DNA of 14,751 nt from Firmicutes bacterium AF25-13AC (lineage in GTDB: Bacteria > Bacillota > Clostridia > Lachnospirales > Lachnospiraceae). The notes below the pieces were generated by a model. That model saw nothing but the letters and a program-made list of their open reading frames with translations. It did no database searches and was not told the origin of the DNA. Positions 1,257 to 14,202 of the stretch are shown here, piece after piece. The stretch's first letter is position 1. Every line of letters starts with the position of its first letter. The position numbers and the translations under genes are program-made. The DNA is taken from positions 1-14,751 of the forward strand of contig QUFP01000061.1 in assembly GCA_003478935.1 (NCBI GenBank), written 5' to 3'.

Positions 1257-1693
1257 GATGGTTGCTATAAGACAAAGGAACTCGCACACAGCGAGCATCA
1301 TCAAAAGGAGGTAATATTTTGGATTATATTCTCAAAGCAGAGAATTTGACGAAGATTTACGGCCACCATAAAGCATTAGACAATTTTTCCATACACATTC
1401 CGCAGGGGAGTACCTATGGATTAGTAGGAAAAAATGGTGCTGGCAAAACAACTTTGCTTCGGATAATTTGCGGACTGCAAGAAGCTACTTCCGGGGATTA
1501 TTCCCTATATGGAATTAGCAGCCGAAAACACGAAATCCTGAACGCAAGAAAAGAAATGGGGGCTGTGATTGAAACACCGGCTATCTATCTGGATATGTCG
1601 GCCACCGGAAACTTAAAGGAACAGTATCGTGTGTTGGGACTACGATCATTCGATACCATTCCTCAACTTCTGAAGATGGTGGGCTTGGAGGAT

Positions 1694-1739
1694 GAAGCCA
1701 TGGTGACAGGTACGGTGGCTTTCAAAGTGTCCCTACTGG
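1694..1739 (+). repeat. Junction repeat, copy 1 (other copy 9115-9160)
   Basis: A 46-base stretch starting GAAGCCATGGTGACAGG and ending CTGG matches 9115-9160 at 42 of 46 positions. In both places it begins exactly where a resistance-cassette gene loses homology to its family. Three of the four differences are silent in the frame EAMVTGT, which suggests the segment is the tail of a coding sequence from one mobile element. The element is not identified. Confidence 0.75.
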
Positions 1740-1762
1740 CTCAGTCCCTGTCCCCCGGGCTG

Positions 1763-1791
1763 TTGACAATAATGCTCCTATATAGTATTAT
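1763..1791 (+). promoter_or_regulatory. Strong promoter of the MarR-radical SAM operon
   Basis: A perfect -35 TTGACA (1763-1768) is followed after 17 bases by -10 TATTAT (1786-1791, five of six consensus). The expected transcription start is near 1798, about 23 bases before the MarR start codon. The -10 lies inside the left half of the inverted repeat 1775-1813, so a bound repressor would block polymerase directly. Confidence 0.8.
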
Positions 1792-1813
1792 ATGAAAAAA
1801 TACTATATAGGAG
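1775..1813. promoter_or_regulatory. Candidate MarR operator: perfect 15-base inverted repeat
   Basis: The arms CTCCTATATAGTATT (1775-1789) and AATACTATATAGGAG (1799-1813) are perfectly complementary, separated by 9 bases. Each arm carries the self-palindrome CTATATAG (1778-1785 and 1803-1810). The site could thus hold two regulator dimers, or one on a long palindrome. The left half covers the spacer and -10 of the operon promoter. The right half contains the MarR gene's AGGAG ribosome binding site. Transcripts from this promoter start after the left arm, so the hairpin could form only in read-through RNA, where it would hide the ribosome binding site. Confidence 0.7.
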
Positions 1814-1820
1814 TTTTTAT

Positions 1821-2258
1821 ATGGAAATGAATGGAGGATTTCTTGTCACCAAAATAAAACAATTGGGAGATCGTATTTTTGAGAAGATTCTCAGTGAAAA
1901 GAATATTGATGCGTTCAATGGAGCTCAGGGGCGCATTCTATATGTGCTGTGGCAGGAGGATGGAATCACGATCAGGTCACTCTCGATCAAATGTGGATTA
2001 GCGATAACTTCTCTTACTACGATGTTGGAAAGAATGGAAAATCAAGGGCTGATAAGGCGCGTTCAGTCAGAAACGGACAAAAGGAAAACACTCCTGTTTC
2101 TGACTGAGAAAGCACATGCCTTAAAGGACGAGTACGATTCTGTATCTGATGAGATGGGCAGTATTTACTACAAAGGTTTTTCAGAGGAAGAAATTACCCG
2201 GTTTGAGGAATGCCTCGACCGTATCAGAAAGAATCTTGAGGAGTGGCAGAAGTCATGA
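1821..2258 (+). CDS. MarR-family transcriptional regulator of the radical SAM pair
   Basis: A 145-residue protein, normal for MarR. It has a central winged helix-turn-helix (about residues 45-105): the recognition helix region around 'SLTTMLERMENQGLIRR', then the wing with D-K-R-K-T. N- and C-terminal helices flank it for dimerisation. The ATG at 1821 has AGGAG at 1809-1813 with 7-base spacing; an ATG at 1827 is a less likely alternative. The gene directly follows a strong promoter that overlaps a perfect palindrome, so autorepression relieved by a ligand or stress is the likely control. Its stop overlaps the next start (ATGA at 2255-2258), which ties it to the two radical SAM genes. I recall a MarR regulator being a standard third member of the 'radical SAM mobile pair' locus. 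The ligand is unknown. Confidence 0.9.
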   Translation: MEMNGGFLVTKIKQLGDRIFEKILSEKNIDAFNGAQGRILYVLWQEDGITIRSLSIKCGLAITSLTTMLERMENQGLIRRVQSETDKRKTLLFLTEKAHALKDEYDSVSDEMGSIYYKGFSEEEITRFEECLDRIRKNLEEWQKS

Positions 2259-2944
2259 GTATTTGTATCAAAGATCAGATTCAAAACATGAATATCGTCA
2301 TCGGCTGTACAGTGGGGTGTGCATATTGCTATGCCCGCAACAATGTGAAACGCTGGCATATGATTGATGACTTCACTTACCCTGAATTCTTTCAGGGTAA
2401 GCTCAAGATGATAGAAAAGAAACGTCCGCAGAACTTTCTTCTTACCGGGATGAGCGATCTCTCCGGATGGAAGCCGGAATGGAGAGACGAGGTATTTGCA
2501 AAGATTCGTGAAAATCCACAGCATCAGTTCCTGTTCCTTACCAAGCGACCTGATTTGCTGGATTTTGATACCGATCTGGAAAACGCATGGTTTGGCGTTA
2601 CGGTGACGAGGAAAGCAGAACGGTGGCGTATCGACGCCCTTCGGAAAAACGTCAGAGCAAAACATTACCATGTTACCTTTGAGCCGTTATTCGATGATCC
2701 CGGCACAGTTGACCTTTCCGGAATCAATTGGATCGTTGTCGGCACCATGACCGGAGTTCAGAGCAGGAAGGTTCATACGGAGCCGGAGTGGGCATGGTCT
2801 CTGACGAATCAGGCACACGCACTAGGCATTCCAGTGTTTATGAAGGAAGACCTTGTCCCAATCATAGGGGATGAAAATATGATTCAGGAAATGCCGGAAG
2901 AATTCAATAAAGTGTTGGAGGTACAGAGATTATGGCAGAAGTAA
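2255..2944 (+). CDS. DUF5131-like radical SAM protein (probable 'radical SAM mobile pair' protein A)
   Basis: A 229-residue cytosolic protein with CX3CX2C for a 4Fe-4S cluster at Cys18, Cys22 and Cys25 (GCTVGCAYCYARN), the hallmark of radical SAM enzymes. Later segments resemble DUF5131/phage Gp37-Gp68 proteins: 'LTKRPDLL', 'WFGVTVT', 'WIVVGTMTG', and a C-terminal stretch around 'GIPVFMKED'. The ATG at 2255 overlaps the MarR stop and has GAGGAG at 2238-2243. An upstream in-frame GTG at 2243 overlaps that ribosome binding site and is rejected. The stop lies 13 bases inside the next gene, so translation is probably coupled. The substrate is unknown. The family link and Cys motif are seen; the 'mobile pair' name is from memory of NCBI annotation, and which member is A or B could be reversed. 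Confidence 0.85.
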   Translation: MSICIKDQIQNMNIVIGCTVGCAYCYARNNVKRWHMIDDFTYPEFFQGKLKMIEKKRPQNFLLTGMSDLSGWKPEWRDEVFAKIRENPQHQFLFLTKRPDLLDFDTDLENAWFGVTVTRKAERWRIDALRKNVRAKHYHVTFEPLFDDPGTVDLSGINWIVVGTMTGVQSRKVHTEPEWAWSLTNQAHALGIPVFMKEDLVPIIGDENMIQEMPEEFNKVLEVQRLWQK

Positions 2945-3840
2945 TCAATGGAATCCTCATTAATGAGGTAGAAACAAAGAACATCATGACCAAGTCCAGT
3001 CTGCCTGTAGGCGGTTACTCGGTCAATCCCTATGTAGGCTGTACACATGCCTGCAAGTATTGTTATGCTTCTTTTATGAAGCGCTTTACCGGACACAAGG
3101 AGGAATGGGGCACTTTCCTTGATGTGAAGCATTGGCCGGAAATTAAGAATCCGAAGAAATATGCCGGACAGCGTGTGGTCATCGGTTCTGTGACGGATGG
3201 CTACAATCCACAGGAGGAGCAATTCGGGAATACCAGAAAACTTCTGGAACAGCTGATTGGCAGTGACGCAGATATTCTAATCTGCACAAAGTCTGATCTT
3301 GTGGTACGGGATATTGATCTGTTGAAGAAGCTTAGACGAGTAACCGTTTCATGGTCAATCAACACATTGGATGAAAATTTCAAGAACGATATGGATTCTG
3401 CTTCGAGCATTGAGCGGCGTATCGCTGCTATGAAGCAGGTATATGAAGCTGGTATCCGTACAGTCTGTTTCGTATCCCCGGTATTCCCCGGTATCACGGA
3501 TTTTGAAACAATCTTTGAGCGGGTAAAGGATCAATGCGATCTGTTCTGGCTCGAAAATCTCAATCTTCGAGGCGGTTTCAAAAAGACAATTATGGATTAT
3601 ATCGCTGGAAAATATCCTGATCTTGTACCGCTTTACGATGAGATCTATAACAAGCATAACCGCAGCTACTTTGAAGCGCTTGAAGTAAAAGCTGAGGAAA
3701 TGGCTAAGAAGTATGATTGTCCCTTTGTGGATAATGAAATGCCTTATGGCAGAGTCCCGCAGGGACATCCGGTGATTGTGGATTATTTCTATCATGAGGA
3801 CATCCGAGGGACAGAGAATACAGGAAAAAGAAACCGTTAG
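2932..3840 (+). CDS. SPL-like radical SAM protein (probable 'radical SAM mobile pair' protein B)
   Basis: A 302-residue protein with CX3CX2C at Cys37, Cys41 and Cys44 in the context NPYVGCTHACKYCYA, as in the spore-photoproduct-lyase-like (SPL/Rv2578c) group of radical SAM proteins. A further group motif, 'VTDGYNPQE', is at about residues 87-95. The TIM-barrel core continues through 'TKSDLVVRD', 'VSWSINT' and 'CFVSPVFPGITD'. The ATG at 2932 has GGAGG at 2917-2921 and overlaps the previous gene by 13 bases, so the two enzymes should be made together. A terminator follows at 3882. SPL itself repairs a DNA thymine lesion, but a repair role here would be inference. The closest alternative is a general SPL-family enzyme of unknown substrate. 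Confidence 0.88.
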   Translation: MAEVINGILINEVETKNIMTKSSLPVGGYSVNPYVGCTHACKYCYASFMKRFTGHKEEWGTFLDVKHWPEIKNPKKYAGQRVVIGSVTDGYNPQEEQFGNTRKLLEQLIGSDADILICTKSDLVVRDIDLLKKLRRVTVSWSINTLDENFKNDMDSASSIERRIAAMKQVYEAGIRTVCFVSPVFPGITDFETIFERVKDQCDLFWLENLNLRGGFKKTIMDYIAGKYPDLVPLYDEIYNKHNRSYFEALEVKAEEMAKKYDCPFVDNEMPYGRVPQGHPVIVDYFYHEDIRGTENTGKRNR

Positions 3841-3881
3841 GCAGAAATTGTAGAATTCAAAAATTTAATATGAAATGTGAG

Positions 3882-3920
3882 ATAGAGCGTATGGAAATTA
3901 ACTATACGTTCTATTTTTTT
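3882..3920 (+). terminator. Intrinsic terminator of the MarR-radical SAM operon
   Basis: The arms ATAGAGCGTAT (3882-3892) and ATACGTTCTAT (3904-3914) pair over 11 positions with one G-U, and are followed by a T-run. It lies about 40 bases after the last stop and closes the operon. Confidence 0.85.
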
Positions 3921-4149
3921 GCTTTTTTGAAAAAAACGATTAATAAATTATTGATATTTTACTTATTGAATATGGCCTGAAAAGGTACTTTGACTTTTGT
4001 AGCCTATATATAACTACATCCTTCAAATTTTAGTTGCAAAATGTAATGTCTAGAGATCGGTTTTTATCACAAAATCAATTTTATCGTTAATAGTCATTAA
4101 TAAATATATTGACTTAGAATCAAACAGAAGTGAAAGAGTCAATTTCCTT
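3921..4149. other. AT-rich intergenic spacer between convergent genes
   Basis: The whole gap 3841-4149 holds only the terminator above and an AT-rich stretch with no credible ORF. On the minus strand a 7-bp hairpin (ATTGACT at 4108-4114, AGTCAAT at 4137-4143) lies just after the LysR stop and may be a weak terminator. I see no insertion-sequence end here. Confidence 0.5.
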
Positions 4150-5037
4150 CTAAGAAGCAATCCATGCCAGTAGGAATTCACGAAAGTAGCGGTTCACCTT
4201 AGTCATGCGCAGCTGTGAGTTTGAGAGCAGATAGATTGTATTGCCTTCATGACCGGAATCAACCAAAGGTCGACTTATAACCTCGGGATGCGACCATAAT
4301 GTATTCATATAATCATAGCCGAGATAAATTGCTTTGTTTTTTATCAATAAATCGCGGATTACAGACTCATCCGTAGTTTCAACAAGAATATGGATTTTGC
4401 GGTTTAATCCGAGAACATATTTGTCAATCATATTTCTGAAACATGAATAGGCACGACCTTTGCTGACAATGGTTTGTCCGTCGAGATCAGCAAAGGTTAT
4501 GTGCCTTTTATTTGCCAATGGATGCTGCTGATTCATTATCACACTGTATCTGCTGTAAAACAACGGATCAGCTTGAAACTGTGTTTGTTCGAATGGCCCA
4601 GTCACAATCGCAAAATTGCATTGCTGAGCAGATAATGCTGAAAGAGCGGCATCATCTGTGGTATCGACCACGTTTAAAATAATTTGTGGATATTTCTGAT
4701 GAAACTGTATAACAAAATCGGCCCCCAAGAAGGCTAGAATATGATCAATGGCATAAATGGTTACAACGCTATGTGATTGTGCGGCGAGAGTATGAAGCCC
4801 GCTGATAGCGGTACATGCTTCTAAAAATTGTCTGGCATGAGGCAAAAGCGCAACGGCATAATCTGTTGGCGTAACACCTTTGCTGCTACGGGTGAAAAGT
4901 GCCTGACCGAGTTCGGTTTCCAGTAAACGGATCACTTTGCTGACACCCTGTCGTGTGACAAATAACTGATCAGCCGCCACTTGTATATTTTGTGTTTCAT
5001 AGACAGTCACGAAATATTGCATTTGTTTTTGATTCAT
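4150..5037 (-). CDS. LysR-family transcriptional regulator
   Basis: A 295-residue protein, the usual LysR length. The N-terminal helix-turn-helix spans about residues 16-40 (around 'AADQLFVTRQGVSKVI') and is followed by 'RLLETELGQALF', typical of the linker start. The rest is a type-2 periplasmic-binding-like effector domain. The ATG at 5037 is preceded by AGGAGGAGG at good spacing; a GTG two codons upstream overlaps this site and is rejected. It is divergently transcribed from the metallohydrolase at 5189 and shares a 150-base control region with it, the classical LysR arrangement, so that hydrolase is the likely target. The effector is probably a small molecule connected to the hydrolase substrate. 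Nothing in the sequence names it. Confidence 0.93.
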   Translation of the reverse strand: MNQKQMQYFVTVYETQNIQVAADQLFVTRQGVSKVIRLLETELGQALFTRSSKGVTPTDYAVALLPHARQFLEACTAISGLHTLAAQSHSVVTIYAIDHILAFLGADFVIQFHQKYPQIILNVVDTTDDAALSALSAQQCNFAIVTGPFEQTQFQADPLFYSRYSVIMNQQHPLANKRHITFADLDGQTIVSKGRAYSCFRNMIDKYVLGLNRKIHILVETTDESVIRDLLIKNKAIYLGYDYMNTLWSHPEVISRPLVDSGHEGNTIYLLSNSQLRMTKVNRYFREFLLAWIAS

Positions 5038-5059
5038 GGGCACCTCCTCCTATAATTTT

Positions 5060-5088
5060 AGTATACAGCAACTATATGGTTGCGGCAA
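5060..5088 (-). promoter_or_regulatory. Promoter of the LysR gene
   Basis: On the minus strand, -35 TTGCCG (5083-5088) and -10 TATACT (5060-5065) are spaced by 17 bases. The palindrome 5068-5083 fills the spacer, so a bound regulator should repress its own gene. Confidence 0.6.
5068..5083. promoter_or_regulatory. Candidate LysR operator GCAAC-N6-GTTGC
   Basis: A perfect inverted repeat, GCAAC TATATG GTTGC, between the divergent genes. Its centre is about 63 bases upstream of the start expected from the -10 of the hydrolase, the position usual for LysR recognition sites on activated genes. Confidence 0.6.
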
Positions 5089-5126
5089 GGAATGTTTTTT
5101 TTCTTTTTTGAAAAACAGAAAGCTAT

Positions 5127-5132
5127 TATAAT
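5127..5132 (+). promoter_or_regulatory. -10 element of the metallohydrolase gene
   Basis: A perfect TATAAT at 5127-5132. No good -35 stands 16-18 bases upstream, only a T-run, which fits a promoter that needs an activator such as the divergent LysR. Confidence 0.6.
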
Positions 5133-5188
5133 GAATTAAGCAAAAGCAACTAAGAATAGATAATAAAAATAGAAGAGGAGATACTCAT

Positions 5189-5983
5189 ATGAAACTAACA
5201 CAAATTCGCAATGCAACTAATCGTTTGGAATATGCAGGAACAACGTTTTTGATCGATCCATGGCTGGCACCAAAGCATACGCTGTCTTTTGTGGATATCC
5301 CAGGAATGCCTTATCATATTCCTGATCCAGTGAAAGAAAACCAGCCCATGCCATTCTATGATCTTCCACTTTCGGTTGAACAGATTATGGCAGACGTTGA
5401 TGCAGTCATTGTGACACATTTACATCCGGATCATATTGATATTTCGCCTATCGATGGTACTGTAGGTGCCCCTTTAGATAAAAAAATCCAGATCTATTGT
5501 CAAAATGAAGAAGATGCCGCTGTACTGGAAAAATCCGGATTTTCTAGAATTACTGTGCTTCCGCTGACCGGATTGAAAGTGGGTAATGTAAAAATAACCA
5601 GGATTCCGGCGCAACATGGTACTTATAAGAATTGTGGTGAGGCTATGGGAGTCATGTTTTCTGCTGAGACAGAGAAAACGTTTTATCTTGCTGGTGATAC
5701 AGTATGGTATTACGGAGTACAGAAGGCAATCAATGAATTTAAACCAGAGGTTATAGCTTTGAATTGTTGTGCTGCTGAAACAAAGGAAAATGGCCGTCTG
5801 ATTATGGGTTCTGAGGATGTATGGAATGTTTCGCTGGCAGCACCAGAGGCAAAACTTTATCTGACACATATGGATAATGTTGCTCATGCATCAGTTACAC
5901 GATTTACGATGCGTGGTCAATTAACAGCGTACGGTGTTTCTAACTATGATATGCTGGAAGATGGGGGATCTGTTGTTTACTAA
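5189..5983 (+). CDS. Metallo-beta-lactamase-fold hydrolase (UlaG-like)
   Basis: A 264-residue cytosolic protein with no signal peptide. The metal-binding motif HLHPDH is at residues 77-82. Further probable ligands are His143 (AQHG), Asp170 (AGDT) and His227 (THMD), so the di-metal site looks complete. The N-terminus ('NRLEYAGTTFLIDPWLA') is typical of the UlaG/L-ascorbate-6-phosphate-lactonase-like branch rather than true beta-lactamases. The ATG at 5189 has GAGGAG at 5175-5180 with 8-base spacing. It stands alone downstream of a LysR-controlled region, and no transport or sugar gene follows to suggest a substrate. The reaction is probably hydrolysis of a lactone, phosphodiester or similar ester, but this is not determined. 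Confidence 0.9.
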   Translation: MKLTQIRNATNRLEYAGTTFLIDPWLAPKHTLSFVDIPGMPYHIPDPVKENQPMPFYDLPLSVEQIMADVDAVIVTHLHPDHIDISPIDGTVGAPLDKKIQIYCQNEEDAAVLEKSGFSRITVLPLTGLKVGNVKITRIPAQHGTYKNCGEAMGVMFSAETEKTFYLAGDTVWYYGVQKAINEFKPEVIALNCCAAETKENGRLIMGSEDVWNVSLAAPEAKLYLTHMDNVAHASVTRFTMRGQLTAYGVSNYDMLEDGGSVVY

Positions 5984-6034
5984 AAGATAGAAGTTAGCAC
6001 TAATGCTTTTTGCTTTCTCTGGCAGATTTTCTTG

Positions 6035-6097
6035 GACGCAGTGCCAGGTACTCTTACAATTTTCAGCCATAGAATGACCATTGTAAGAGTGCTTGGC
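6035..6097. repeat. Palindromic repeat, 18-bp stem (insertion-element end or MITE-like)
   Basis: The arms GCCAGGTACTCTTACAAT (6043-6060) and ATTGTAAGAGTGCTTGGC (6080-6097) pair over all 18 positions with two G-U pairs, around a 19-base loop. The left part, 6035-6062, is identical over 28 bases to 9203-9230, where it abuts a truncated XRE gene. A related 8-bp stem lies at 6625-6647 at the 5' end of the MFS fragment. There is no T-run, so this is not a usual terminator. Confidence 0.7.
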
Positions 6098-6150
6098 AGC
6101 AAGTTCTTGCTATATCATTTTGTAATAAAAGCTGTTATCATATCGAAATA

Positions 6151-6250
6151 CCACAGGGACACTAATTGAGCCAGTGTACCCAATAAAAGAGCCGGAATCC
6201 CTGTCCCTTTGGCGGTTCTTAATTCAGGTAAAAAAAGTGTCCGCCCCTCA
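6151..6250 (+). mobile_element. Remnant insertion-sequence ends, including an IS3-like right end
   Basis: CCACAGGGACA (6151-6161) and TGTCCCTTTGG (6202-6212) form an inverted repeat with one mismatch. From about 6216 to 6250 the sequence (CTTAATTCAGGT, then GTCCGCCCCTCA) is a diverged copy of the IS3-type right end at 74-110. The preceding bases do not encode a recognisable transposase C-terminus, so only the end survives. The rest of 5984-6250 has no credible gene. Confidence 0.55.
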
Positions 6251-6252
6251 CA

Positions 6253-6290
6253 AGAACCTGGAAGGATTATCCTTCTAGGTTCTTTTTTGC
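6253..6290 (+). terminator. Strong intrinsic terminator
   Basis: AGAACCTGGAAGGA and TCCTTCTAGGTTCT form a 14-bp stem with one G-U pair and a 3-base loop, followed by TTTTTT. It directly follows the insertion-sequence end at 6250, so the gene it served is gone. It now insulates the small gene downstream. Confidence 0.85.
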
Positions 6291-6342
6291 GCAGAAAAAT
6301 GTGATGTAATGGAAATAGATAGATGTAATTGAGGGAAAAGTG

Positions 6343-6351
6343 TGATATTAT
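6343..6351 (+). promoter_or_regulatory. Extended -10 promoter of the small membrane protein
   Basis: TGA-TATTAT (6343-6351) is an extended -10 element 35 bases before the start codon. No good -35 is present. Confidence 0.45.
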
Positions 6352-6386
6352 GGGAGTAAGAAATTGGAATTTGTGGAGGTATCATT

Positions 6387-6554
6387 ATGAAAAATATTAT
6401 GTTTGGAAATAGTTTAATGCTTTTGGCAATTTTTTTATTTATGTGGTGTGGTTTTATGAAATCAATGTATGTTCTTATGTGGATTGCAATTGCATTGATT
6501 CTAATAGGATTTATTATAGCGGTTGTTGGCTATATTAGCAAGGACAAGAAATAA
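6387..6554 (+). CDS. Small hydrophobic membrane protein, 55 residues
   Basis: An ORF from ATG 6387 to TAA 6554 with GGAGG at 6375-6379. The product is almost wholly hydrophobic: helix 1 at about residues 5-22, helix 2 at about 29-50, and a basic tail (SKDKK) expected in the cytoplasm. It has its own extended -10 promoter and follows a strong terminator, so it is an independent unit. I do not recognise a family; small two-helix proteins of this kind are common as accessory or toxin-like peptides, but nothing here shows a function. It sits between decayed insertion-sequence ends and the MFS fragment. Confidence 0.6.
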   Translation: MKNIMFGNSLMLLAIFLFMWCGFMKSMYVLMWIAIALILIGFIIAVVGYISKDKK

Positions 6555-6602
6555 GTAAAAAGTCTTGAGTTGTGCTAAGCGTAGACAGCAAGGTGATTTG
6601 TA

Positions 6603-7046
6603 ATGAAAAGAAGCAGGACTAAGAGTAAGAGTACCAGGCACTCTTACGACATCGAATCAGGAACACGCGAGGCCTTGGCATATGATAGTTTAAAGTCAGT
6701 GAATAGCGAGAATGATTACAATAAATTTGCATCAACTGAGATGATGTTGTATCGAATCACCAGTTCATTGGCTACGCTATGCGCAGGCTTGACCTTGTGG
6801 TTGGGATATAAAAGAGCCTATGAAATTGATATTTTCTTTGGACTAATTGCGATGGGCTTTGCATTCGGCTTGAAAGAGATTTCAGTTGATGATAATGAGC
6901 ATTCACAATATTCCATAAGCCAGAAATTAAAAGAAGTCATTACAGAAAGCATAAACTTTTTGGTTACAAACAAAAAAGCCAGAGCAATTATGTTTTTAAA
7001 TGCACTGATAGGCGCCGTATCAACACTTGTGGGAAGCATTATGTGA
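6603..7046 (+). pseudogene. Fragment of an MFS drug-efflux-type transporter
   Basis: An open frame of 147 codons with a plausible ribosome binding site (AAGGTG). From about residue 16 it matches the middle of a 12-helix MFS transporter: 'SGTREALAYDSL' (a motif seen around helix 4-5 of such carriers), then 'RITSSLATLCAGL', a hydrophobic pair of helices, a charged central loop, and the start of helix 7 ('AIMFLNALIGAVSTL'). Both ends are missing, since a full carrier is about 400 residues. The first 15 residues come from a short palindromic repeat (6625-6647) related to that at 6035-6097, so an insertion or recombination event cut the 5' end. The stop at 7044 truncates it inside helix 7. It is unlikely to transport anything. 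Confidence 0.75.
6625..6647. repeat. Short palindrome related to 6035-6097
   Basis: GTAAGAGT (6625-6632) and ACTCTTAC (6640-6647) flank ACCAGGC. The same words (CCAGG, ACTCTTAC) make up the larger palindrome at 6043-6097 and the repeat at 9211-9228. It lies exactly where the MFS homology begins. Confidence 0.6.
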
Positions 7047-7372: not shown

Positions 7373-8367
7373 ATGACCTTTATAGAAGCACTTAATAGTC
7401 AGGATTTAGAAAAAATAAGAAAGTTCCCCAAAGCGGATTTGCATAACCATTTTGTGCTTGGTGGTAGTAGAGAGTATATATTCAATAAGACTGGATATAA
7501 AATCAAATCCATAACAACTCCGTTGAAATCTATGGGTGAAATGGATTCATGGAGCAGTAAATATATTGGAAATCATTTTAATAGCCCGGAAGGAAGAAAA
7601 TTATTAATTGAGGCAACATTTGCACAAGCAAAATTCGACGGAGTAACAGTGTTGGAAATAGGAGAAGATGTATGGGGCCTTGGCGAGTTTTTTGATAATG
7701 ACATTGAAAAAATGATTTTTTGTTTTCAGGAGCAAATGCTAGGATAGCTCCTGAGATCGAATTACGTTTACAAATTGGATTATCAAGACATTGTTCGGTT
7801 GACTATTTGATGAATTGTTTATCTCATTTTTGGGGACATAAGGAATTTTATTCGATTGATCTTTATGGAGATGAATTGGCACAGTCGATAGCGAATTTCA
7901 TCCCAATTTATGATAAAGCTGCTGAAAACGGACTTGTGTTAAAAGCTCATGTGGGCGAATGGGGTACTGCGAAGGATATAATTACTGCAGTTGAACTTCT
8001 TCACCTTAATGAAGTGCAACATGGAATAGCGGCTGTACAAGATGAAAATGTCATAGAGTATCTGATTGAAAATAATATTCGATTGAATATTACACCTTCA
8101 AGTAATGTACTTTTGGGTCGCGTATCTGATATGGCACATCATCCGATAGCACAACTTTATCATAGGGGTGTAGATGTTACCATAGGCTCTGATGATGTAC
8201 TAATTTTTAATTCGGATATTTCAAAAGAGTATCTGAGGTTATATCAGTCTGGATGCTTAACAAAAGAAGAACTTGATGACATTCGGATAAATGGATTAAG
8301 AGATCGAAAGAATAAAGCATCGCATCGGTCTACAAACAACGGAGCAAGAATATACAAAGAATTGTAA
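7373..8367 (+). pseudogene. Adenosine-deaminase-like metallohydrolase broken by a frameshift
   Basis: The first part (7373-7747, ATG with GGGAGG 9 bases upstream) carries the metal-binding HxH motif at residues 24-26 (KADLHNH). The second part is in the -1 frame from about 7720 and carries the other hallmarks in order: a 'HVGEWG' segment (HAGE-like catalytic Glu), 'VQHGIAA' (zinc His), and 'IGSDDVLIF' (DDP-like Asp pair). Together they make a normal-length (~330) deaminase-like protein of the adenosine/AMP deaminase superfamily. The frames join in the run ATTTTTTG (7714-7722); one extra T would restore a continuous reading frame. No X-XXY-YYZ slippery heptamer is in frame, so a mutation or a sequencing error is more likely than programmed frameshifting. 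The substrate could be adenosine or a modified purine. Confidence 0.8.
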
Positions 8368-9017: not shown

Positions 9018-9146
9018 ATGCAGAAGATTTTAATTGTCGAAGATGATATTGACATTCAGGATATATTGAAAAAACATATGATTGATGCAGGCTATGAAGT
9101 TGCTGTCGCTTCTAGAAGCCATGGTGACAGGAACGTTGGCTTTTAA
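9018..9146 (+). pseudogene. Response-regulator fragment (OmpR/VanR type), N-terminus only
   Basis: The ATG at 9018 has GGAGGTGG at 9005-9012. The first ~31 residues ('MQKILIVEDDIDIQDIL' onward) are the beta1-alpha1-beta2 start of a receiver domain with the acidic pair EDD, very like the intact regulator at 10153. At 9115 the gene runs into the junction repeat shared with 1694 and stops after 42 codons. The phospho-acceptor Asp, the conserved Lys and the DNA-binding domain are all lost, so it is non-functional. It is probably the regulator of a lost peptide-resistance cassette. Confidence 0.8.
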
Positions 9147-9160
9147 AGTGTCCCTGCTGG
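9115..9160 (+). repeat. Junction repeat, copy 2 (other copy 1694-1739)
   Basis: Matches 1694-1739 at 42 of 46 positions. It truncates the response-regulator gene and is followed by TTTAATATGTGTCCCC, so GTGTCCC occurs twice within 30 bases. That would fit the repeated terminal motifs of some insertion sequences; the family is not determined. Confidence 0.75.
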
Positions 9161-9575: not shown

Positions 9576-9770
9576 TTATGCCTGCCCCATCGGGAAGTTT
9601 GGCAGTTCTTCCAGCAGCTTCATAATCAAGTGCTGCTTCATATCCTCATTAACGGCCAGCTCGTCGATCATGGGGGTGTAGTGTTCGATCACCTTTTCTT
9701 TGGCCCATTTCTCGCCGGCGACGGCGGCCCTGATGGTAGCTGTGTCCAGTAACATTTCCTGTTCGGCCAT
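9576..9770 (-). CDS. HTH_16-type small protein of a conjugative transposon
   Basis: A 64-residue protein with 'IRAAVAGEKWAKEKVIEHYTP' cut to its core features: an A-V-x-G-[ED]-x2-A segment, a V-I-x-H-Y turn, an acidic middle, and an amphipathic C-terminal helix (LIMKLLEELPNF). This is the pattern of the helix-turn-helix domain proteins (PF12645 type) found next to sigma-like genes in Tn916/Tn1549-like elements. The ATG (9768-9770) has AGGAG with 8-base spacing; the longer open frame upstream to 9893 is not needed. In related elements it is linked to regulation of excision or transfer. Here it is the only intact backbone gene, on the opposite strand to the XRE remnant. Confidence 0.75.
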   Translation of the reverse strand: MAEQEMLLDTATIRAAVAGEKWAKEKVIEHYTPMIDELAVNEDMKQHLIMKLLEELPNFPMGQA

Positions 9771-10059
9771 CGTGTCAACTCCTGTCGTTTTTTGTCTTAT
9801 TCCAGCATACCACAGAACCGGCGGGAAAACCAGCGCCGGAAAGATTTTCCTACGCATTTCAAAGCCCGTTCCGGCGGGTATTTGATAAATCATTCTGCCA
9901 CCCCATTGACCACCGCCGAAAAGCCTTGATTTCCGTGGGCTTTTTGCCCCCTAAATGCGTAGACAGGAGGGGCTTTTGCTGGCTTTTGGTTTCATATTTC
10001 CAGTGTACCCAGCAATAGAAATGTGTTCTTCTAACATCTAATAATTCATATTTTACGCC
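9771..10059. other. Spacer between transposon backbone and resistance cassette
   Basis: GC-rich to about 9990, then abruptly AT-rich. It holds two hairpins: AAAAGCC/GGGCTTTTT at 9919-9945, terminator-like on the plus strand, and GCCCC/GGGGC just after. The word CCAGTGTACCCA at 10000-10011, where composition changes, also occurs at 6171-6182 in the insertion-sequence remnant. No gene is visible. Confidence 0.45.
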
Positions 10060-10152: not shown

Positions 10153-10836
10153 ATGAAAATTTTGATTGTTGAGGATGATTTAGAGATCAGCAAATTGCTG
10201 GCTGATTTTTTACAGGGAAATGGATATGAGGTGCTTTGTCAGTATGATGGGCTTCATGTGTTAGACTGCATACAAGAACATCAGATTGATCTTATTCTGC
10301 TTGATATAATGCTGCCTTATCGGAGTGGTGATACTATACTTGCGGATATTCGTAAATTCTCAACGGTTCCTGTCATAGTAATTTCAGCAAAGGAAACAAC
10401 ACAGAACAAGATTGATTTGTTGCGGCTTGGTGCGGATGATTACATTACAAAACCTTTCGATATGGAAGAAGTTCTCGCCAGAATTGAAAGCAACTTACGC
10501 CGGATTCAATTTCAAAACAGCACGCCGTCATCTTTGAAGTGCAATGATTTGGTTTTAGATTTAGACGGTAACAGAGCTATGCTACAAGGGGCGGAGTTAC
10601 CTTTAACTGCGAAAGAATTTGCTATACTGGAATTGCTTATGAAATACCCGGACAAGATCTTCTCAAAGGCGAATTTGTTTCAAAGTGTTTGGAATACAGA
10701 GTATATCAGCGAGGACAACACCTTGAATGTCCATATTAGCAACTTGCGAAACAAGATGAAAGCCATTTGCCCGGATAAAGAGTTTATAGATACTGTGTGG
10801 GGCATTGGATACCGTTTGCATAAAGCCGAGGGGTAA
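10153..10836 (+). CDS. OmpR-family response regulator of the peptide-resistance cassette
   Basis: A 227-residue protein of full length. The receiver domain (1-~115) has the acidic pair at 8-9, phospho-acceptor Asp51 in 'LILLDIMLP', and Lys100 in 'ITKPFD'. The winged-helix output domain (~128-225) ends in the usual 'VWGIGYRL'. The ATG at 10153 is preceded by AGGTGA at 12-base spacing, longer than ideal. The gene has its own promoter and terminator, apart from the transporter operon; the kinase is at the far end of that operon (13300). It probably controls the operon at 10933 in response to peptide antibiotics, as NisR/SpaR/CprR-type regulators do. The exact ligand is unknown. Confidence 0.93.
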   Translation: MKILIVEDDLEISKLLADFLQGNGYEVLCQYDGLHVLDCIQEHQIDLILLDIMLPYRSGDTILADIRKFSTVPVIVISAKETTQNKIDLLRLGADDYITKPFDMEEVLARIESNLRRIQFQNSTPSSLKCNDLVLDLDGNRAMLQGAELPLTAKEFAILELLMKYPDKIFSKANLFQSVWNTEYISEDNTLNVHISNLRNKMKAICPDKEFIDTVWGIGYRLHKAEG

Positions 10837-10860
10837 GCTCTTGGCTTTATGCTTTTTTTA
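10819..10860 (+). terminator. Intrinsic terminator of the response-regulator gene
   Basis: CATAAAGCC (10819-10827) and GGCTTTATG (10843-10851), with extra GAG/CTC pairing inside, are followed by seven Ts. It overlaps the end of the coding sequence. Confidence 0.85.
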
Positions 10861-10879
10861 TGGTTTCCAAATAGAAATT

Positions 10880-10918
10880 AAGAAATTCTTTATGATTTCC
10901 CCTTACACTAAAATGTAA
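10880..10918 (+). promoter_or_regulatory. Candidate regulator sites upstream of the transporter operon
   Basis: There are two inverted repeats: AAGAA-A-TTCTT (10880-10890) and TTACA-N6-TGTAA (10903-10918). The latter overlaps a possible -10 (TACACT, 10904-10909). No good -35 is visible, which fits a promoter that needs the phosphorylated regulator. Confidence 0.35.
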
Positions 10919-10932
10919 AGGAGGATGACAAC

Positions 10933-11871
10933 ATGAGTTCTGTTATTTTGGAAGCACATGACTTAACAAAAGAATACCGGCACACAATTGCCTTAGATCA
11001 TATTGATTTGAAAATTGAAAAAGGGAAAATTTATGGCTTCATAGGCCAAAATGGAGCAGGAAAGACCACCTTTTTGAGATTGGTTACAGGATTAGCGTTT
11101 CCGACAAGCGGCACCTTATCGTTGTGGGGGAAAACCGTCGAAAAGGAATTGCAGGAACAGAGAAAGCGGATCGGTTGCATGATCGAAACACCTGCGCTTT
11201 TTCCGACAATGACCGCTTATCAAAATATGGAGATACAGCGTATCCAACGTGGTATCCCTGACAAAGCAGTTATCCAAAAAACTTTAGACATGGTAGGTCT
11301 GAAAGATACCGGGAAAAAAGCTGTCCGTAATTTTTCGCTGGGGATGCGACAGCGATTGGGTATTGCAATCGCACTATTAAATACACCAGAATTTCTTATT
11401 TTGGATGAACCGATCAATGGGCTTGATCCTGCTGGAATTGTGGAAATTCGTAATTTGCTAAAGTCCTTGAATAAGGAATACGGAATGACAATATTGGTAT
11501 CCAGCCATATCTTAGAGGAACTGTATCAGACAGCATCAGAGTTTATTTTAATAGACAAAGGCAAAATTATCGAAGAAATATCAGATCGAGAACTAAATGA
11601 TCGTTGCAAACGGCATATCGCAATAAAGGCAACTGATCCACAAAAAGCTCTGATCGTTTTGGAAGAAACGCTACACACAGATAGTTTTAAGCTGATGCCA
11701 GATGGCATGATTCGCCTATATGATTATCTCGATGATATGGAAAAAGTGGCTGCTGCTTTGTCAGATGCACATATTCTCGTTACAGGTCTTTCTGTGGCCG
11801 GTGATACATTAGAAGATTACTTTTTAAGCAAAATAGGAGGGACAGCAAATGTCAAATCTCCTAAAAGCTGA
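10933..11871 (+). CDS. ABC transporter ATPase, BcrA/lantibiotic-immunity (CprA-like) type
   Basis: A 312-residue protein of full length. Walker A is GFIGQNGAGKTT at about residues 35-46, the signature is 'NFSLGMRQRLG', and Walker B is 'LILDEPINGLD'. An H-loop His is in 'VSSHILEEL'. The C-terminal ~90 residues are the extra domain typical of BcrA/NisF/SpaF ATPases. The ATG at 10933 has AAGGAGG at 8-base spacing. The gene overlaps the first permease by 23 bases and starts a four-gene operon ending in a kinase. It powers export or membrane removal of bacitracin- or lantibiotic-like peptides. Order and content resemble the cprABCK operon of Clostridioides difficile as I remember it; identity to any named gene was not tested. 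Confidence 0.93.
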   Translation: MSSVILEAHDLTKEYRHTIALDHIDLKIEKGKIYGFIGQNGAGKTTFLRLVTGLAFPTSGTLSLWGKTVEKELQEQRKRIGCMIETPALFPTMTAYQNMEIQRIQRGIPDKAVIQKTLDMVGLKDTGKKAVRNFSLGMRQRLGIAIALLNTPEFLILDEPINGLDPAGIVEIRNLLKSLNKEYGMTILVSSHILEELYQTASEFILIDKGKIIEEISDRELNDRCKRHIAIKATDPQKALIVLEETLHTDSFKLMPDGMIRLYDYLDDMEKVAAALSDAHILVTGLSVAGDTLEDYFLSKIGGTANVKSPKS

Positions 11872-12535
11872 ATTTTATAAGCTGTTCCATAGCTGGTATT
11901 TTTGGGGGATAGGATTGTTTAATCTCCTTTTAAGTAGTGTGTTGTTACTGGATAGCGTTGGGGAAACATCCAACCTTTTCTTTGCTTCGATATACAATAT
12001 GCCAATCCTATATTTCCTCACAATCATCTTTTCTGCCATGTTTGTTGGAAATGATTTTGGCAGAAGAACATTACAATCATATATCAATGCCGGACATCGA
12101 CGCGGAAAGATACTATTTGCGAAGCTGGTAGTTCATCAAATCGCCTGCATGGTTATCCTGTCTTTTCCACTGTTGTTACATAGCATAATTGGTACGTTTG
12201 TCACTAAAGGAGCATTGGCAAGCATCGGCATAGTTGTAATGGTGATTGCTTCGCAATTTGCAATGTGCCTATTACCTTTTTTCTTTGCCTTCATTTTCCG
12301 TGATATAGGAAAGAGTATGGCTGTGCCGATGGTACTCTTTTTCTTAATGGTCTTTTTGATGAATGGAGATCAAGCGCAGCTTATCTCACAAATATTGCCT
12401 ATGGGCCAGCTTCGGCTTATGGCATTGCAACAATCCAACATATCCGGCGGGCAATTCATGTTTTCAGATTTTTTATGGGTACTGGCATTATGCTTAGGTA
12501 CTTATCTGTGGTTCCGACGCTCGGATTTGAAATAA
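11849..12535 (+). CDS. ABC-2-type permease, first subunit (lantibiotic immunity type)
   Basis: A 228-residue integral membrane protein with about six helices (roughly residues 16-34, 50-70, 97-118, 125-150, 158-175 and 205-224). It starts with 'LLKAEFYKLFHSWYFW', typical of NisE/SpaE/CprB-like permeases. The motif 'NDFGRRTLQSYINAGHRRGK', between helices 2 and 3, is the coupling region, and its counterpart appears in the next permease. The ATG at 11849 lies inside the ATPase gene with GGAGGG before it, so translation is coupled. It forms the channel together with the second permease. Confidence 0.9.
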   Translation: MSNLLKAEFYKLFHSWYFWGIGLFNLLLSSVLLLDSVGETSNLFFASIYNMPILYFLTIIFSAMFVGNDFGRRTLQSYINAGHRRGKILFAKLVVHQIACMVILSFPLLLHSIIGTFVTKGALASIGIVVMVIASQFAMCLLPFFFAFIFRDIGKSMAVPMVLFFLMVFLMNGDQAQLISQILPMGQLRLMALQQSNISGGQFMFSDFLWVLALCLGTYLWFRRSDLK

Positions 12536-12550
12536 CAAGGAGGTGTGGGA

Positions 12551-13288
12551 ATGAACAACTTACTGAAAATGGAAAAATATCAATTATCACATAATATCTT
12601 TTATTGGTGCGGTTTAATAGGGATATTTTTGATTGGTTTTTTTACCGCAGATACTTATGTCCCGGAAGCTATGGGGCCTATGGGTGGGGCTGCTACATCC
12701 CTCGCAGATATTTTTAATGGAATGGTTTACGATTCAACCTTTCTCCTGATTATTATATCCAGTATTTTAGCTCTGATTTTAGGACAGGAATTTTCCAGTC
12801 GGACGATTGATCTTGAGGTCAATGCAGGACATTCGAGAAAAACCATTTTCTTTGCTAAAGTAATCTCATACTTAATTGCATTTAATATCATGGCTCTTGT
12901 TTATCCTGTGGCTGGTTGTATAAGAGAAAGTGTCCGCTTTGGTATTACCGAAGCAGGCAACCTTTGTTATAAGGTCAGTAAGGCGATTTTATATTCTCTG
13001 CTTTTGAACAGTGCGACTTTTCTTATTGCAATCTGGATTGTTTTTTGGTTAAGAAGCTCTGCAAGAGCAATAGCTGTTACCGCTTTAGTCACTTTTGTTC
13101 TTAGCCTTTATCTTGGGTATGGAATGATGTTCGATCTTCCTGTTGCATTTTTGGCAACCTATCAGATACGGGAAGCGGTTTTTTCTGTGACCTATTTTTT
13201 GCCATGGGCCATTTTAGTTGGCGTTGTTTGGATAGTTGCTTTGATAACCTTTTCATGGATTAGCTTTCGCAAATGTGAACTCAAATAA
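12551..13288 (+). CDS. ABC-2-type permease, second subunit (lantibiotic immunity type)
   Basis: About 245 residues with six predicted helices. It has the same layout as the preceding permease, including 'LLKMEKYQLSH' at the N-terminus and the coupling motif 'QEFSSRTIDLEVNAGHSRK', so the two are probably old paralogues. The ATG at 12551 has AAGGAGG at 12537-12543 with 7-base spacing; the GTG at 12545 is too close to that site. It follows the first permease after 15 bases and should form a heterodimeric membrane part, like NisE-NisG or CprB-CprC. Confidence 0.9.
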   Translation: MNNLLKMEKYQLSHNIFYWCGLIGIFLIGFFTADTYVPEAMGPMGGAATSLADIFNGMVYDSTFLLIIISSILALILGQEFSSRTIDLEVNAGHSRKTIFFAKVISYLIAFNIMALVYPVAGCIRESVRFGITEAGNLCYKVSKAILYSLLLNSATFLIAIWIVFWLRSSARAIAVTALVTFVLSLYLGYGMMFDLPVAFLATYQIREAVFSVTYFLPWAILVGVVWIVALITFSWISFRKCELK

Positions 13289-13299
13289 CAAGGAGGGAG

Positions 13300-14202
13300 G
13301 TGTCTGGAATAAAGCTATTGTTAATTTTAGTTATCGCAGTCTTGATAGTAGTGCTTTTCAAATATGTGCAAATCAAAAGACAAATCCGTAACCTATCGAA
13401 ACAAATGACCGATCTTACAACTGGAAAATCGGAAAAGATGCTGGACATCTCTCTTGTTGATAAAGATATAGAACAACTGGCCGCAGTATTAAACCAGTAT
13501 AATGAAAAGCAAAGACAGTCCATTGCAAGCACATTACGGCACGAAATGTATTTGAAAGAGTCCATTGTTAATATTTCACATGACTTGCGTACCCCTCTGA
13601 CGGTAATACTTGGCCATGTACAATTATTAAAAAAGGAGAATTTATCAGCAGGTCAAACACAGCGTATAGAAACCATTTTTAATAAAGCAGAAAGAATGAA
13701 AGAGCTGATACAAACCTTTTACGATCTTTCTGTAATAGACGCAAAAGAAGTAACTCCTGTGCGTGAAGATTTCAACTTAACAAATTTGCTGATAAATCTT
13801 ATCACAGAGAACGCCCCAGCATTGGAAGCAAAAGGCATATCTCCTGTAATTGGTCTGCCAGATCATTCCGTTTATCTCCATTCGGACTATGGTATGGTAG
13901 AACGTATTTTTCAAAATCTTATTATAAATGCTATTCGATATTCCTCTGGCTCGATTAAAATTGATTTGAAGCAAGGCAAAGAAAAGAGTGCTATTTTTAT
14001 CATTGAAAATCCCATTGATAGTAAGGTGGAAATAGACCCAAACCGACTATTTGAAAGATTTTATACCGGGGACAAATCAAGGCATAATAGCGGTACAGGA
14101 GTGGGGCTTGCTGTGGTAAAACTATTAACTGACAAGCTCGGCGGCAATGTGTTCGCTAAAATTGAAAATGATACACTAACCATTTCATTGGAAATCAAAT
14201 AA
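13300..14202 (+). CDS. Sensor histidine kinase of the peptide-resistance cassette
   Basis: A 300-residue protein with one N-terminal membrane helix (about residues 4-21) and no extracellular sensor domain. A short linker leads to the HisKA domain with phospho-acceptor His94 in 'NISHDLRTPLTVI'. The ATPase domain has the N-box 'QNLIINAIRYS', the F-box 'LFERFYTGD' and the G-box 'GTGVGLAVVKLL', all intact. Lack of a sensor domain suggests it senses through the neighbouring transporter or within the membrane, as Bce- and Cpr-type kinases do. The GTG at 13300 follows AAGGAGG at 13290-13296, a short 3-base gap; a TTG at 13318 is an alternative. It should phosphorylate the regulator at 10153. Confidence 0.9.
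   Translation: MSGIKLLLILVIAVLIVVLFKYVQIKRQIRNLSKQMTDLTTGKSEKMLDISLVDKDIEQLAAVLNQYNEKQRQSIASTLRHEMYLKESIVNISHDLRTPLTVILGHVQLLKKENLSAGQTQRIETIFNKAERMKELIQTFYDLSVIDAKEVTPVREDFNLTNLLINLITENAPALEAKGISPVIGLPDHSVYLHSDYGMVERIFQNLIINAIRYSSGSIKIDLKQGKEKSAIFIIENPIDSKVEIDPNRLFERFYTGDKSRHNSGTGVGLAVVKLLTDKLGGNVFAKIENDTLTISLEIK

Follow-up and report, generated by a model that had tools for sequence, protein, structure and literature searches.

A MarR and radical SAM gene trio that probably travels as a discrete cassette among phages, a megaplasmid and bacterial chromosomes

In the stretch of DNA analysed here (14,751 nucleotides, referred to as the window), a MarR-type regulator gene and the genes of two radical SAM proteins, A and B, form an operon that very probably constitutes a discrete, exchangeable cassette with sharp ends. 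Judging from sequence comparison, the three genes appear to travel together, as a single cassette, among phages, a megaplasmid and the chromosomes of bacteria from gut and mouth. Taken as a whole, we favor, at a probability of about 0.6, a promoter-bearing cassette under MarR control whose two enzymes cooperate, the class of their substrate being left open. The radical SAM mobile pair is already known by its family name and its proteins are unexplained. The operon of the window is a further member of this known family, and its cassette context is what may be new; the exchangeable unit with defined ends is the point that goes beyond the preliminary description of this DNA.

The operon and its control region

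Three adjacent genes spanning 1821-3840 encode the MarR regulator, A and B, each above its NCBIfam curated cut-off (Table 1). Their Pfam domains are MarR, DUF5131 and Radical_SAM, with protein A scoring 109 bits against PF07505 (DUF5131, cut-off 28.9). The preliminary description had named the operon a radical SAM mobile pair with a MarR regulator, a DUF5131-like A and a B resembling spore photoproduct lyase (SPL). These family calls proved correct, with NCBIfam and Pfam matches for both enzymes, the mobile pair system being judged here from the names and scores of the NCBIfam models. Likewise, the CX3CX2C motif described as intact in each enzyme is complete in A (C18/C22/C25) and in B (C37/C41/C44), embedded in both in C-X3-C-X-Y-C-Y, and the genes overlap as described, MarR and A by ATGA (2255-2258) and A and B by 13 nt (2932-2944). 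In a literature outside which lay most subscription papers and all preprints, we found no paper on the "radical SAM mobile pair" or on DUF5131 together with radical SAM, unrelated papers only under the TIGR numbers of the trio, and nothing on the exact cassette, its border sites or its exchange with other genes.

Table 1. Features of the operon and its borders in the window.
Feature	Position	Strand	Basis
Sigma-70-type promoter, TTGACA-17-TATTAT	1763..1791	+	11/12 matches; coincides with the left end of the shared unit in this copy
Operator-like palindrome	1775..1813	.	Two perfect 15-nt arms, 9 nt apart
MarR-family regulator (TIGR04472)	1821..2258	+	NCBIfam 293.1 bits, cut-off 240
Radical SAM mobile pair protein A (TIGR04471, DUF5131 type)	2255..2944	+	429.4 bits, cut-off 355
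Radical SAM mobile pair protein B (TIGR04470)	2932..3840	+	606.1 bits, cut-off 410
Degenerate right border site	3841..3858	+	Comparison with L019 and other loci; others carry MTTCnnGTTTG
Intrinsic terminator hairpin	3879..3917	+	-18.4 kcal/mol, z -5.6, 0/200 shuffles as good

The claim that the operon has its own promoter and operator was borne out by a strong promoter and a perfect 15-bp palindrome. As a class, promoter-like matches are not in excess between 1600 and 4000 (4 found, 5.2 expected from shuffles). The arms of the palindrome (1775-1789 and 1799-1813) form a perfect inverted repeat that covers the -10 box and extends to the ribosome-binding site. Among 49 other loci, 13 of 13 arm positions match in 40 and 12 of 13 in 9, a count that rests on a search pattern presupposing the arms. 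MarR would sit on this palindrome over its own promoter, from which a ligand would release it. The further claim of an own terminator held in part: the hairpin is real, although terminator-like matches as a class number 1 against 1.4 expected from shuffles (1600-4000), but it lies outside the conserved unit. Among the fetched loci, L019 alone aligns with the flank that bears it (113 nt, 91%), and on these alignments we assign the terminator to the flank.

Carriers, borders and conservation

A scan with protein B, one genome per species, returned 386 relatives. The best 80 of these 386, one megaplasmid record and four viral contigs make up the 85 loci analysed, a set that leans to close relatives; a second megaplasmid record also matched and is not among the 85. 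Judged by their titles, the hosts are Treponema, many Lachnospiraceae, other Firmicutes and Collinsella, with single bins called Fibrobacter and Anaerolineaceae. The pair lies on unrelated mobile elements (phages or prophages and a megaplasmid) and also on chromosomes; the recurrence in unrelated contexts anticipated by the preliminary description is therefore observed.

The ends of the unit were read from 51 alignments to the window (at least 91% identity, more than 1500 nt). Forty-seven of them start at 1755-1763 and end at 3832-3850, and homology stops at both borders, near 1760 and near 3839. The four remaining alignments miss the right border (two), the left (one) or both (one); two are contig ends (L008, L061), L025 continues to 3870 and L019 covers only 2389-3960. 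The rest of the window gave no match to the 85 loci at E 1e-10. The borders consist of a repeated core (consensus AAMTTCMAGTTTG) and CGGAATTT. In the 48 loci with both ends mapped, conservation on the left fades across the leader before TTGACA, and on the right it ends just past the stop codon, where CTTCCAGTTTG is most common. The left end is AAMTTCMA-like and followed by GTTTGnnGnATTG in 23 of these 48; the right ends of these array-type copies carry an exact MTTCnnGTTTG in 13 and a degenerate one in the rest, apart from L022, which is without it. We also considered a transposon with terminal repeats and target duplication: the two variable bases of the 13 exact-core copies are the same on the left and right in 6 and different in 7, which a plain duplication does not fit.

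Across 1.24 Mb of loci, the core pattern of the right end has 46 forward and 6 reverse matches, a strand bias that is partly built in, since the loci were oriented on the pair and chosen for it; 24 forward and 4 reverse sites are left once those that bound the pair itself are set aside. The same pattern has 0 matches in 118 kb of Treponema integron DNA. Of 299 genomes of the family, 20, including two known carriers, contain a stricter junction pattern; its reversed control has 0 matches. Looser 13-base patterns are less specific, giving a few matches also in Treponema and in reversed controls. It could be argued that no cassette system exists, and that sharp borders are a sampling effect of a few carriers that were inherited or recombined. 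Some loci do share a common carrier (L009, L012, L013, L027, L030, L032), but identical borders were seen in settings as different as prophages, a megaplasmid, slots next to recombinase genes and Treponema chromosomes, and they also bound other genes, so that we hold this explanation to be very unlikely.

The copy in the window is damaged, its left leader being lost and its right border degenerate. The preliminary description had placed it between broken mobile-element pieces. This stands on the left, where the neighbor is a truncated ABC-ATPase fragment (its family match stops near residue 129 of 158), but not on the right, where genes of LysR type and metallo-hydrolase type look whole. A 46-bp stretch between the cassette and the truncated ATPase (1694-1739) recurs at 9115-9160 (91%), where it stands before a helix-turn-helix ORF. 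Elsewhere in the window, an adenosine deaminase gene (NF006856, 7373-8367) is split between overlapping forward frames, 7373-7747 and 7720-8367, that match model positions 4-121 and 122-313. A response regulator, an ABC ATPase, two membrane proteins and a histidine kinase are encoded in a row at 10153-14202 (forward strand), an arrangement known from antimicrobial-peptide immunity loci. An HTH_16 protein, of a type known from Tn916-like elements, is encoded at 9576-9893 (reverse strand); in L010:9932-11527 HTH_16 is fused to an integrase.

Within the cassette, A and B overlap by 13 nt in all 77 loci with both ends readable, and MarR and A by 4 nt in 56 of 74; such conserved overlaps fit coupled translation. 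Median dN/dS against the window is 0.07 for MarR, 0.18 for A and 0.07 for B (n = 51, 51 and 52; copies of at least 91% identity), indicating that all three are under purifying selection. A occurs in 82 of the 85 loci, and 75 of them have MarR no more than 4 kb away. Three loci are without both (L049, L064 and L075, which start near or in B or are without A), and the remaining MarR-less loci are without MarR only. An opposite-strand gene replaces MarR in L046, L048, L050 and L057; in L046, the one examined, it is TetR-type. The search for conserved third genes proposed at the outset found partners but none present in all loci: a flavin reductase gene (PF01613 in a representative), which directly precedes MarR in 15 of 85 loci, each of them of the more divergent type, and a CGGC-domain gene that separates A from B in L065 and L069 (2 of 85 loci; about 7633-7970). 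Since the regulator can be replaced and these putative redox or metal partners differ among loci, the core is A plus B.

Of 119 genomes drawn evenly across the phylum, 2 contained A above cut-off, one of them picked for having the pair, and the pair is therefore patchy. At 90% identity, one cluster of A and one of B each hold more than 20,000 member sequences. Together, the comparisons describe two adjacent radical SAM genes with a fixed 13-nt overlap, a swappable regulator and purifying selection, carried as one unit with short, defined borders by very different carriers.

Other genes at the same borders and candidate movers

Cutting the loci between successive sites yielded 42 units, 16 with the pair and 26 others (two are the same DNA fetched twice). 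Most of the non-pair units, with few exceptions, hold one small forward ORF. Small-gene units also stand in short arrays. Pfam searches on representatives identified HxlR (a cluster of four units), two GNAT proteins, GyrI-like, Rce1-like and DUF5714 proteins and a SnoaL_2 match below cut-off; one 115-aa protein was without a match. Natural swaps fix the borders of the cassette. In L010 one slot, with a tyrosine recombinase gene beside it, occurs twice; one of the recombinase gene copies is a fragment. The slot copies share 1082 nt upstream at 93% identity, a match that breaks off one base beyond CGGAATTT (position 4517), and their similarity restarts downstream at AATTCCAGTTTG (136 nt, 89%); one copy contains the pair and the other a peptidase S51 gene. 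Likewise, related prophages carry, behind the same tail gene and at the same CGGAATTT border, the pair in L102 and L107 and another gene in L104 (marginal TfoX_N match, 30.6 bits against a cut-off of 30.1). A third prophage, L143, carries a YjbR gene directly before the shared right flank, and is weaker evidence for a swap because it has no recognisable core.

The position of the left junction was further examined in flank matches restricted to those ending between -80 and +5 of TTGACA, in which some DNA is counted twice. All but two of these 63 matches end between -55 and -14: 18 at -25 to -19, 17 at -46 to -44, 12 at -55 to -52, 8 at -32 to -30 and 6 at -16 to -14, the other 2 ending at -74/-73. 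On the right flank, 60 of 72 matches were tallied, of which 37 start at a core or degenerate core and 23 elsewhere. A TATAAT-like box lies shortly before the cassette in several slots, in a manner reminiscent of an integron cassette promoter.

L015 has a 1763-bp duplication (1-1763 and 5023-6785, 98% identity) ending at the cassette's left side. L038 has four spacer copies of about 110-190 bp near 282, 6617, 8911 and 9612, each beginning with a core-like site and following different sequences. Adjacent MatE transporter pairs stand near the cassette in L010:6936-9483, L033:699-3390 and L042:16-3139; a supposed "recombinase trio" element in L010 was discarded, two of the three neighboring genes being these MatE transporters.

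We tentatively propose, as a reading not far below even odds, an integron-like system, not recognised so far, by which bacteria of the gut and mouth exchange cassettes. Its slots, headed by a promoter and located in prophages or beside recombinase genes, would accept cassettes of small genes or operons at a short site; the radical SAM pair, with a promoter of its own, would be among the most widely spread of its passengers. The junction consensus, read by eye, is close to AAATTCCAGTTTGTCGAACTGACAAATCGGAATTT. In our main reading, too, a site-specific recombinase supplied from elsewhere would move the cassette between slots.

Ordinary integron borders, with the pair as a classical integron cassette, would also account for small one-direction units with a common border and for the promoter-like box that precedes the first unit of several slots. 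Moreover, some pair copies end in a longer right end that folds as an imperfect, attC-like hairpin, and among 15 host genomes an integron integrase is above cut-off in two, both Treponema (T. socranskii and T. putidum), with that of T. parvum in two pieces just below cut-off. However, none of the 12 non-Treponema host genomes has such an integrase above cut-off, though one could act from another cell. Furthermore, a covariance model built from 18 Treponema attC sites gave 60 matches, all in three array loci, and 0 in 25 other loci and the window, showing that the pair does not lie in those attC arrays. We thus largely reject the classical integron and regard it as improbable here; the cassette may still have some link to integrons. 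The IntegronFinder 2.0 paper (PMC9024848) reports integrons to be very rare in such anaerobes. One T. putidum locus, L093, contains a regular integron array with more than 20 attC matches in 20 kb beside the integrase.

As for the recombinase of the proposed exchange system, a crude motif scan of 94 loci detected a tyrosine-recombinase motif in 3 frames and a serine motif in 1, and missed that of L054. A large serine recombinase is present in 10 of 85 loci, not always close; in L036 its gene (4611-6775) lies between two core sites, directly before the cassette. A large serine recombinase remains a candidate for the mover.

Possible role of the enzyme pair and relation to known systems

Once MarR is released, the production of A and B would be coupled in amount, and the two would act jointly under anaerobic conditions. 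We consider it possible, with reserve, that they form an inducible two-enzyme module acting on a nucleic acid or nucleotide, in repair or modification, as SPL does; flavin reductase or CGGC partners, where present, would supply electrons or metal. Fold models of both proteins match radical SAM enzymes with SPL among the best, but SPL, viperin-like, LIAS, SkfB and NifB matches are tied (Z differences below 1), and the folds therefore do not point to nucleic acid or to any substrate. SPL uses a catalytic H-donor cysteine; B has Ser86 at the aligned place, and a compared SPL-like protein (222.3 bits, cut-off 400) also has Ser there. A possible A-B fusion as a sign of a complex was left unused, one record (P0135) reading as frame-shifted and the other (P0146) being single.

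An alternative is that the same cassette encodes enzymes that alter or destroy a small molecule, such as a drug or a diet or host compound, sensed by MarR. MarR control and the flavin reductase neighbor would suit this, as would the GNAT, GyrI-like and HxlR genes of other units, which often serve detoxification or sensing. Yet both enzymes have phage relatives (A matches phrog_2045), and the match of B to the PHROG "DNA repair photolyase" (9.3e-9) fits nucleic acids better, leaving the small-molecule role somewhat unlikely.

A phage-defence or phage-competition module is another explanation. Copies of the pair lie in prophages, and A matches the PADLOC candidate-defence models PDC-M30B (1.4e-30) and PDC-M41B (3.8e-30), the B-component models only. 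However, these matches fall on the part of A that the general DUF5131 domain also covers, and MarR control is unusual for defence systems; we judge a defence role unlikely.

The pair is very common yet unexplained. A defined unit with its operator, borders and accessory genes makes the role of the enzymes testable, and equally the identity of the recombinase by which small gene cassettes are spread among anaerobes.

Among known systems, the closest is the NCBIfam radical SAM mobile pair itself, to which our analysis adds the precise extent of the mobile unit, the sites at its borders, the replacement of the regulator and the flavin reductase and CGGC partners. From the SPL and PA0069/Rv2578c families the pair is set apart by B, which falls far below the cut-off of the SPL family TIGR04070 (19.2 bits against 400), and by folds tied with other radical SAM enzymes. 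A matches DUF5131 (phage Gp37/Gp68) and PDC-M30/M41, but belongs to a distinct equivalog tied to B. As in integron cassettes and CALIN arrays, small one-direction units lie between copies of a common site and are apparently exchangeable, sometimes with a promoter-like box ahead of them. In contrast to those cassettes, the site here is a short core rather than a Treponema-type attC, the non-Treponema hosts surveyed show no integron integrase above cut-off, and the pair cassette brings its own promoter.
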